Source: a virus
Reading direction: 5' to 3' (one strand)
DNA length: 58,510 nt
IMG/VR virus record: IMGVR_UViG_3300049479_000276
Coordinates: 1 to 58,510 of that record
Shown: positions 3,374 to 35,169 of the stretch, one piece after another
How positions within the stretch are numbered: the first letter of the stretch is position 1
Layout: the number at the start of each line of letters is the position of its first letter
Made by a program: the position numbers and the translations under genes
Notes under the pieces: generated by a model
What the model saw: the letters and a program-made list of their open reading frames with translations, nothing else
Told to the model about the DNA's origin: nothing
Databases searched by the model: none

Positions 3374-4072
3374 ATGGCAGATCGTAAATTCTACGAACAA
3401 TTTAGACAGACGCCAGAAGGACAAGCCTTGCTGCGAACCATTCGTTTTGCAGAAGGCACAGAACGTGGTGGGCCAGATTCCTATCGAGTCATGTTTGGTG
3501 GTTCTTTAGCGCCAGATCTGAAACGCCACCCAGATGTCGTAATGAAAGGCCGTAGCACTGCTGCAGGAGCCTATCAATTCCTTACGCCAACCTGGAATGC
3601 CGCACAAAAGAGACTAGGCCTCACATCTTTTGGTCCTGTTGAGCAAGACATTGCAGCACTTGACCTGGCTCGTTCTCGCACAATGGGTCTTGGCGGTCTG
3701 TCTTATTTGCAGAAACAAGGATTAACACCTGAGTTTGTTTCTGCCCTGGCGCCAGAATGGGCATCATTGCCTACCAAAGAAGGTAAGAGTTATTACGGGC
3801 AGCCCGTTAAGCCGTACCAAAAATTACAAGAAGTCTATAGCCAGGGCTTAAAACCTCTTCAGACTACTGACCAAGCTTCGCAAGGTCAGCAACAAGACAT
3901 GTCTAGTAATGACTTCTTGAAAGGTTTTATGGCGGCAATGTCCGGCAGCAATACCAAAGAAGCGTCCATGAAAGATCTCTTGAAAGAAAGATTGGCAATG
4001 GAACTGTTTTCCCCTCAAACCATGGCAGGACCCCTTGATTTTTTGTCAAGCTACCTTAATCCGTACGCTTGA
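3374..4072 (+). CDS. GH104-type lytic transglycosylase (lambda R-like)
   Basis: 232 residues; GGAGAA lies 9 nt before ATG. The first 150 residues follow the lambda R endolysin pattern in order: FAEGTE (with the likely catalytic Glu), STAAGAYQF, LGLTSFGPVEQDIAALDL and WASLP followed by YYGQ. Such enzymes cleave the glycan strand of peptidoglycan. Lambda R is about 158 residues; here a C-terminal extension of about 70 residues resembles the tails of neighbouring virion proteins, so a virion-bound entry enzyme is more likely than the main endolysin. Confidence 0.8.
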   Translation: MADRKFYEQFRQTPEGQALLRTIRFAEGTERGGPDSYRVMFGGSLAPDLKRHPDVVMKGRSTAAGAYQFLTPTWNAAQKRLGLTSFGPVEQDIAALDLARSRTMGLGGLSYLQKQGLTPEFVSALAPEWASLPTKEGKSYYGQPVKPYQKLQEVYSQGLKPLQTTDQASQGQQQDMSSNDFLKGFMAAMSGSNTKEASMKDLLKERLAMELFSPQTMAGPLDFLSSYLNPYA

Positions 4073-33579: not shown

Positions 33580-33708
33580 TGATATCCTGACACGTGGAGC
33601 AATTCAGCTCTAGGGGTAATAGTCGAAACCCCTTCCACGTTACGAACGTGGTGCTCAGTAAAGCGTAGAAGGAAGCTATGATCCCGGTATAACAACCGGG
33701 ATTTTTTG
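33580..33708 (+). ncRNA. Structured leader with alternative pairings and terminator (riboswitch/attenuator candidate)
   Basis: CCACGT (about 33645) can pair with ACGTGG upstream (about 33591) or with ACGTGG just downstream (about 33656), which are mutually exclusive folds. The first fold encloses GAGC/GCTC and AGGGG/CCCCT hairpins, making a three-way junction. An 8-bp terminator (ATCCCGGT / ACCGGGAT, then TTTTTT) at 33681-33708 runs into the GTG of the next gene. GAAGGA precedes ATG 33678, which opens a 4-codon ORF (M I P V). Confidence 0.55.
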
Positions 33709-34364
33709 TGGCATATCTCAACCACAACCTACCGACCTTCACTTGCTATATACGCAACGAGTTTTTGTACAACCACAAGCAGGGTCATGGCGAGGTAACA
33801 CTTTGCGACGTCCATTCTGTTGCCTCCCTGGAGAAACGCGTCCCATTGTTTGAGGTGTTCTTAGAGAATGGCGTCAACTGGACCCGCCGGCCGATCCATG
33901 CGTTGTGCTGGAAGCCAGATGCTCCAGTCCCCGCTTTGAACGAGTGTATGTGGTGGGATTGCTTCTCCCCCTACATTGATGTACAGGTGCGCTCACGTCT
34001 TGCCAACTTACGCGCAGAGCTAATTAACTATCGCGGAGAAAAAAATCAAGGCGTCTACATGTTTACTTTGGATTGGTCTTGGGAATCCAAGTCAACTCTC
34101 AACACTAACTTCAGTGAAACACCTGAGCACAAGTGTGCACATTTCTTTCGCATGGACAATGGAAATTTTTATGCGTATCCCAATAACAAAATTATTTGGT
34201 ACGATGACGCCTGGCTACGCAACCGGATTGATAAAAACCCTGGCTACGAGATTGACCTGAATGAGTACAGTGTTGAAAACTCACGGATGATTGAGACGTC
34301 AGATCGTTTCATGTATGACATACTTTTAAAGTACCGTGATGTAAGTTGTGTGTATAATATGTGA
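33708..34364 (+). CDS. Conserved unknown protein with aromatic-rich core
   Basis: 218 residues from GTG 33708. No Shine-Dalgarno is close; a good one lies before ATG 33678, which is in the same frame but hits TAA after four codons. Distinctive strings are GVNWTRRPIHALCWK, WWDCFSPYIDVQVRSRLANL and TLDWSWESKSTLNTNFSET. I recall similar sequences in cyanophages but no function. Expression could depend on the leader described above. Confidence 0.65.
   Translation: MAYLNHNLPTFTCYIRNEFLYNHKQGHGEVTLCDVHSVASLEKRVPLFEVFLENGVNWTRRPIHALCWKPDAPVPALNECMWWDCFSPYIDVQVRSRLANLRAELINYRGEKNQGVYMFTLDWSWESKSTLNTNFSETPEHKCAHFFRMDNGNFYAYPNNKIIWYDDAWLRNRIDKNPGYEIDLNEYSVENSRMIETSDRFMYDILLKYRDVSCVYNM
34353..34358 (+). 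promoter_or_regulatory. Candidate -10 element for the structured RNA
   Basis: TGTATAATATG ends 6-7 nt before the first paired bases of the RNA at 34363. No -35 box is seen, as with other candidates. Confidence 0.4.
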
Positions 34365-34789
34365 GTTCCCCCTCTCTTTTCGATGGGGCTCAGTTGGCCG
34401 CTGATGCGCCGGGGACCGATTCGGCAAGCGCGAAGGCTGGGCGACTCGTTAGGCAGATAGCCTAGAAGGAGAGCCCAAGATAGAGGTGCAGTCCCTGCTT
34501 GGATACGCCTGGTTAACTCACAGCCCGATTGTCGGTACGCCAGTCACACTGCATCCATCTAATTAAGGGTCCAAGCATGGTGCATGCTTTGGTGTAAAAG
34601 ACTGACGCCTCCGGCTTCGGACAGCCAACCGTAAGGTTTAGGTCAGCGCCCTAATTTAAAGGGTACAACAAGGAACGTTGTATTAAACGAAGGATCCCCT
34701 CGGCCGCATCGTAGATTCACCGTTAAGTTTGTGGTAACACAGCCCTAGCGATGGTCGGTGAACGTAGGCGGACATCCTCGCCCTAATAC
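34363..34789 (+). ncRNA. Large structured RNA upstream of tRNA-Pro (GOLLD-like candidate)
   Basis: About 425 nt with no credible ORF. Hairpins seen: GAG-CCCC / GGGG-CTC near the 5' end; TAGGC/GCCTA at 34450-34464 inside a longer GGGC...GCCC stem; AAGCAT/ATGCTT at 34573-34589; CTGAC/GTCAG (34602-34646) enclosing TCCG/CGGA and AACC-GTAA-GGTT; TTCACCG/CGGTGAA (34716-34762) enclosing TGTG-GTAA-CACA. Two GNRA tetraloops are present. tRNA-Pro follows directly. Giant ornate RNAs next to tRNAs in phages (GOLLD) are known, but identity is not established. Confidence 0.6.
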
Positions 34790-34861
34790 CGAGATGTAGC
34801 GCAGCGGTAGCGCATCTGCTTTGGGAGCAGAGGGTCACAGGTTCGATCCCTGTCATCTCGA
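34790..34861 (+). tRNA. trnP-UGG: tRNA-Pro (UGG)
   Basis: Full 72-nt cloverleaf: acceptor CGAGATG / CATCTCG, anticodon stem TCTGC / GCAGA with loop TTTGGGA (anticodon TGG), T-arm with GGTTCGATCC. No encoded CCA. Probably co-transcribed with the structured RNA; it may offset codon-usage differences. Confidence 0.95.
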
Positions 34862-34914
34862 TATAACAAACATCAATAAACGCCTTATATTAATTACACG
34901 AATAAAATTTATGA

Positions 34915-35169
34915 ATGGCTTGGGCTGACGCCAAGAAACGTATTGATAAGAATAGAAAGAAGCTGCTGGAGTACAAGCAGACTTTGCAGTGCGAGAAGTG
35001 TGGGCTGGATGATCATCGTGTCCTTGAGTTCCACCACGTTGGAGACAAGGATAACAATGTCTCCAGCATGGTAAACCATGGTTATGCCTGGAGCAGGGTA
35101 GAGGATGAGATTAGTAAGTGTATTCCACTATGTTGCAACTGCCATAGGCTTGAGCACTGGGTTAGTTAA
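34915..35169 (+). CDS. HNH endonuclease, small
   Basis: 84 residues. CEKCGLDDHRVLEFHHVGDK followed by CIPLCCNCHRLEHW is an HNH core with two CxxC zinc motifs. Located beside the tRNA, a frequent site for homing nucleases. It converges with the structural gene at 35166, overlapping its end by 4 nt. Confidence 0.8.
   Translation: MAWADAKKRIDKNRKKLLEYKQTLQCEKCGLDDHRVLEFHHVGDKDNNVSSMVNHGYAWSRVEDEISKCIPLCCNCHRLEHWVS

Follow-up and report, generated by a model that had tools for sequence, protein, structure and literature searches.

What is encoded by a stretch of viral DNA that has no open reading frame, reads as a series of hairpins and runs directly into a tRNA gene? The locus lies in a viral contig of 58,510 nucleotides (IMG/VR record IMGVR_UViG_3300049479_000276), referred to here, at its full length, as the window. 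The DNA polymerase A of the window phage is 69% identical to its counterpart in Synechococcus phage S-EIV1, which leads all other matches by a wide margin, and by this sequence measure the window is an S-EIV1-like cyanophage. The original prediction, made by inspection of the letters, placed at positions 34363–34861 a large structured RNA directly before tRNA-Pro, possibly a new member of the giant phage RNAs or a new class. The comparison reported here yields a different picture, in which the region is a series of at least six small cassettes, predicted to fold separately, that are gained, lost, reordered and traded like tRNA genes among cyanobacterial viruses.

Genomic setting and comparison with known RNAs

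The region is bordered on its 5′ side by the stop codon of a plus-strand coding sequence (33708–34364; phrog_3704, labelled ‘ferredoxin’) and on its 3′ side by a plus-strand tRNA-Pro gene (anticodon TGG; 34790–34861), identified by ARAGORN and by Rfam (RF00005, 70.4 bits). The 425 nt between the upstream stop codon and the tRNA (34365–34789) contain no open reading frame of 60 or more amino acids, and a −10-like TATAAT is located just upstream on the plus strand (34353–34358); in these respects, and in the tRNA that follows directly, the locus is as it had been described. The C-terminus of the phrog_3704 product diverges past residue 205, near the array start, as if the array had replaced or displaced the end of this gene. 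Beyond the tRNA lies a plus-strand HNH endonuclease ORF (34915–35169; phrog_2255 HNH, 1.6e-19; Pfam HNH E = 0.0023, under the gathering cut-off). An HNH gene also follows the array in relatives L002, L004 and L005, and HNH genes adjoining the arrays are a possible vehicle for exchange between lineages.

A reader working by eye had been unable to match the RNA to GOLLD, ROOL, tmRNA or RNase P RNA, and the Rfam search bore this out. Positions 34363–34789 have no Rfam relatives; a search of 34300–34920 at E ≤ 10 returned tRNA only, with no match to the GOLLD covariance model, and ROOL, HEARO, tmRNA, RNase P RNA and group I/II introns were likewise unmatched in the region. ARAGORN found no tmRNA. 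Across the window, the manA and wcaG covariance models gave no match, nor did the abiF RNA model (RF03085) at E ≤ 0.001, and BLAST of the whole region against plasmids returned chance-level matches only.

Anatomy of the array

Downstream of the conserved −10 box, the plus strand of the window carries the order M1h-M1d-M1a-M2-M3-M4-tRNA-Pro. M1h (34363–34391), the first cassette, is a 5′ end hairpin with CCCC/GGGG arms here and CCCG/CGGG arms in L005; it opens every array of the window type, and various cassettes can come next. M1d (34392–34438) has the core GCGCC...GGCAAGCGCGA, and M1a (34439–34477) is a 39-nt hairpin with the near-invariant core GYUAGGCANAUAGCCUAGAAR. The conserved shell of M2 (34478–34560), GAUAGAGG..GUCMCUG / ACAC..CCAUC, encloses an exchangeable inner domain (~34499–34545 in the window), whose variants comprise UAUAUCC..GGUAUA, the M1a core, a GUAAGUCC motif and the long domain of the window. 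M3 (34564–34654) is present in six other contigs. M4 (34660–34784) consists of an 81-position core, in which two hairpin arms sit on a GGG/CCC stem, and, at a single site (~34716–34760), a peripheral hairpin that varies. Modularity is apparent on two levels, that of whole cassettes and that of interchangeable inner parts, namely the M2 inner domain and the M4 peripheral hairpin.

Covariation support for small RNA families

Hairpins are indeed numerous, and two of them are capped by GUAA tetraloops, in M3 (CCGUAAGG) and in M4 (UGUGGUAACACA), but the hairpin content is no greater than chance. The minimum free energy of the 427-nt region is −146.6, compared with −142.7 ± 6.3 in dinucleotide shuffles (z = −0.62); the stretch is GC-rich, so that hairpins can be counted in shuffled sequence as well. 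Among the six pieces, M1a was the sole one with significant stability (39 nt, z = −4.25). Given these values, single-sequence folding was rejected as evidence, and the structural case is one of comparison among homologues, not of energy.

Comparative folding, which had been suggested as a check, gave covariation beyond shuffled controls in M4, M2, M1a and M1d, in alignments whose conserved core letters are fixed by construction through the seed patterns used for fetching sequences, whereas the majority of the varying stem columns lie outside the seed letters (M4 stems 3–4, M2 columns 10–12, and the outer stems of M1a and M1d). For M4 (alignment A1, 30 sequences), 99.8% of cells were paired and 8 of 23 pairs were doubly changed (0/500 shuffles), with a covariation score of 0.281 versus 0.155 in shuffles and at most 0.127 in slid controls; RNAalifold concurs on the main stems. 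The M2 shell (A2, 20 sequences) was 97.1% paired, with five doubly changed pairs and a score of 0.354 versus 0.123. M1a (A3, 35 sequences) was 94.3% paired and had eight doubly changed pairs, 29 further pair types and a score of 0.484 versus 0.139, while M1d (A5, 20 sequences) had 99.0% of cells paired, four doubly changed pairs and a score of 0.258 versus 0.108 (0/500 shuffles). For M3, with six sequences only, two doubly changed compensatory pairs and a score of 0.162 versus 0.045 give limited support. Covariance models of M4 (R1) and M2 (R2) match the window at E = 1.3e-21 and E = 1.5e-14, respectively, the window sequence being among the training rows of each.

On this comparative evidence, M4, M2, M1a and M1d clearly qualify as covariation-supported RNA families, with more limited support for M3. 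The suggestion of a new class holds in the sense of several new small RNA families forming a composite, and not in the sense of a new giant class.

Reassortment of cassettes among relatives

Relatives carrying the array were retrieved with the upstream coding sequence as query. Their arrays start and end alike and differ in the middle. In a comparison of 35 arrays, differing cassette sets lie between the same 5′ hairpin and the tRNA. With modules called by pattern rather than by covariance model, L004 reads M1h-M1d-M1a-M2-abiF-M4-M3-tPro, in which the position of M3 differs from that in the window, and L002 reads M1h-M1d-M1a-(new module)-M2-abiF-tCys-M4-tPro. Shorter arrays are seen in L005 (M1h-M1d-M1a-M2-tPro), L087 (M1h-M2-M4-tPro) and L121 (M1h-M4-tPro), and L125 carries M1h-M1a-M2-abiF-tCys-M4-M3-tPro. 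M1d is cleanly absent from L090, L125 and L295, and in other phages M1a, M2 and M4 are found singly as well, flanked by a wide variety of tRNAs.

These arrangements bear on the reading of the locus as one large ornate RNA of the GOLLD or ROOL kind, including or abutting the tRNA and self-assembling. Size, the neighbouring tRNA, the GUAA tetraloops and the phage setting all suit such an RNA, and GOLLD and ROOL are likewise large phage-associated RNA regions close to tRNAs. However, neither was matched by Rfam at E ≤ 10, and the pieces are inserted, deleted and reordered separately and are found alone, so that the region is modular and separable rather than one fold. GOLLD was rejected as the identity of the locus, for want of an Rfam match and because the modules, which vary independently of one another in presence and order among relatives, do not form a single continuous multi-domain RNA. 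A single large RNA is now highly improbable and largely refuted, although the structured phage RNA region beside a tRNA stands. It is very probable that the modules are instead cassettes in their own right, within an RNA operon of the tRNA type.

Scans of viral contigs, which are partly redundant populations and whose copy numbers are not independent events, found M4 in 89 contigs, the M1d core in 40, M3 in 7, and M2 and M1a in more than 119 each. Copies without annotation also occur in isolates: M4 in S-CREM1 and DSL-LC03; M2 in S-SRM01, S-CREM1, S-RIM8, S-SZBM1 and S-RIM32; and M1a in S-SZBM1, DSL-LC02 and S-EIV1. The modules are common to S-EIV1-like phages and T4-like Kyanoviridae, which points to exchange across lineages. 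A search for the M2 pattern in 84,980 genomes of bacteria and archaea returned 10 matches, which by eye have no conserved paired stem or ACAC motif; as candidate host originals they were dismissed and taken as chance. No earlier description of these modules was found among the open-access papers searched.

Several further arrangements were observed. In L002, an additional module lies between M1a and M2 (3771–3856; TTAAGTCCAGG...CCCCGGAGTAACAATG). L178, L179 and L184 carry a tRNA-less non-coding RNA of a few hundred nucleotides that contains M1d, an M1h-like hairpin into which a GGACCGGAAAYCUCCAGUC-type motif is inserted, and a K motif (AAGUCC..GGCC), and that ends in an apparent intrinsic terminator; this is another RNA absent from the catalogues. 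In L329, L339, L351 and L387, M1a is found inside a GGGC..GUAAGUCC-type shell between an ORF of ~150 amino acids and a capsid-like ORF of ~350 amino acids. This placement, beside a capsid-like gene and away from tRNAs, resembles an mRNA element and suggests that use of this RNA domain extends beyond tRNA arrays.

Linkage to tRNA genes and a putative promoter

With identical contexts removed and random positions drawn from the same loci, a same-strand tRNA lies within 300 nt of 82% of M4 copies (10% of random positions), 81% of M2 (15%), 71% of M1a (10%) and 58% of abiF RNAs (4%). The spacing is tight: M4 mostly ends 4–8 nt (mode 5) before the next tRNA, which can be of many species, M1a starts 0 ± 2 nt past the end of the preceding tRNA, and the end of abiF RNA coincides with the start of a tRNA. 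Such spacing is expected if tRNA-processing enzymes separate the pieces, a step that we infer.

The majority of the 25 distinct upstream contexts have a TATAAT-like box (TATAAT, TAGAAT, TATAGT and similar) at a fixed position, 6–7 nt before M1h. Several of these boxes come straight after the T-run terminator of the upstream gene, and M2-first arrays show the same arrangement. A fixed box, sometimes right after a terminator, suggests that the array is probably an independent transcription unit.

We therefore consider a model in which a sigma-70-type promoter, with its −10 element at 34353, would drive a non-coding transcript M1h-M1d-M1a-M2-M3-M4-tRNA-Pro, each cassette of which would fold independently. 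RNase P and the tRNA 3′-end enzymes would cut at the tRNAs and free the intervening RNA for work in trans. In the window the tRNA lies only 3′ of the array; tRNA cleavage alone would release M1h–M4 as one piece, and other nucleases would be needed.

The modules could also serve the tRNA operon in cis, as leaders, trailers or spacers that aid tRNA folding, processing and stability, or as portable stability or processing domains. This would fit the tight abutment to tRNA ends, the 5′ hairpin right behind the promoter and the occurrence of M1a in an mRNA intergenic region. Yet many tRNAs of the same phages have no module, the conserved cores are elaborate beyond the needs of a spacer (81 positions in M4), M1d is also part of an RNA that lacks a tRNA and ends in an apparent terminator, and the same slots hold abiF RNA, a known toxin binder. 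We consider a cis-acting role rather unlikely, and action of the cassettes in trans reasonably probable.

Known RNAs in the same arrays and possible function

In relatives, abiF RNA takes the same array slots as the window-type cassettes. Rfam matched it in S-CREM1, where it sits between tRNA-Asn and tRNA-Gly, in S-SZBM1, and in L015, L156, L176, L201, L113 and L116; scores above gathering (RF03085) were obtained in L015, L082, L084, L156, L176, L201, L113 and L116. L002, L004, L049, L062 and L264 hold abiF-like RNAs with an extra loop hairpin, none of the five reaching the Rfam cut-off. abiF RNA is probably under-counted in cyanophages.

The toxin partner of this RNA, AbiF, is a HEPN protein. 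The abiF RNA RCd22 of C. difficile binds AbiF directly, neutralising the toxin in cis and in trans (PMC12373285). As with the window cassettes, abiF RNA is a small structured RNA cassette in cyanophage tRNA arrays; it differs from them in sequence and structure and in having a known toxin partner, and is missing from the window. A precedent for phage RNA acting against host defence is the PhiTE mimic of the ToxI antitoxin, which defeats ToxIN, a host RNA-antitoxin system, and evolves via repeat expansion and recombination (PMC3475682); that RNA is a tandem-repeat mimic, whereas the window cassettes belong to tRNA arrays and have distinct folds. Antitoxin-type genes are also present inside arrays, Phd in DSL-LC03 and MazE/AbrB-type in DSL-LC02 (loci L083 and L085, respectively), with no annotated toxin adjoining. 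Phd/YefM accounts for 3 of the 102 array ORF clusters, and no toxin family is among the 25 Pfam families listed for them.

abiF RNA in the same slots, the ToxI mimic and the antitoxin genes together make counter-defence the leading functional reading. Some cassettes would mimic RNAs bound by host toxins or nucleases, or occupy their RNA-binding sites, as abiF RNA does for AbiF, and a shifting set of host defences would cause cassettes to be gained, lost and reordered. For M1a, M1d, M2, M3 and M4, this role is suggested by neighbourhood, and against it stand the absence of abiF RNA from the window and of a host original of M2 from the 84,980 genomes. A counter-defence role for at least one window cassette is a tentative proposal, less likely than not.

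The cassettes might instead be trans-acting takeover RNAs unrelated to defence that bind, for example, the ribosome, RNA polymerase, RNase E or Hfq-like proteins and redirect host expression. The conserved purine-rich AAGGAAC of M4 and GAAGGAG of M1a, in predicted loops, and the restriction of the modules to cyanophages within the searches made are in keeping with such targets, while the frequent changes in presence and absence are more readily explained by an arms race than by a core role in takeover; we judge this explanation unlikely.

Other structured RNAs are found amid the tRNAs of other phages. manA (RF01745) and wcaG (RF01761) both occur in such arrays, as in the tRNA-Leu|manA|tRNA-Asn order of S-CREM1, and for the cyanophage copies a cis-regulatory role towards coding genes has been proposed (PMC2864571). 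By this parallel the window modules would be cis-regulatory or riboswitch domains. Here and in most relatives, however, the modules are followed by a tRNA and not by a coding gene, which makes a regulatory role of this kind improbable. An older parallel is offered by the stable RNAs C and D of T4, non-tRNA RNAs of unknown function that are encoded in the T4 tRNA cluster and co-transcribed with the tRNAs; by description they are similar to the window cassettes, as non-tRNA RNAs beside phage tRNAs, and we know of no report of combinatorial shuffling for them.

Taken as a whole, the best explanation of the locus is a phage RNA operon that releases trans-acting RNAs, most likely for host takeover or counter-defence, and we rate the chance that this full account is right as even.

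Implications for cyanophage tRNA arrays

At least four covariation-supported families (M4, M2, M1a and M1d) are unmatched in Rfam 15, and the copies located in isolates are unannotated. abiF, manA and wcaG RNAs have each been treated singly in the papers cited for them, and the cassette pattern offers a general explanation for the non-tRNA spaces in cyanophage tRNA arrays. More speculatively, and in our estimate somewhat unlikely, these arrays may be combinatorial islands of RNA antidotes, reshuffled by unrelated lineages against varied RNA-guided or RNA-inhibited host defences; besides abiF RNA and small antitoxin proteins, the shared pool would contain at least five structured RNA cassettes that had not been described before. 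Isolates bearing the modules exist (S-CREM1, S-SZBM1, DSL-LC02, DSL-LC03, S-SRM01 and S-RIM8), so that direct testing is feasible. If the antidote reading is right, the proteins bound by each RNA would provide a route to new host defences, and M1a, M2, M4 and their relatives would be handles to undiscovered defence systems of cyanobacteria.
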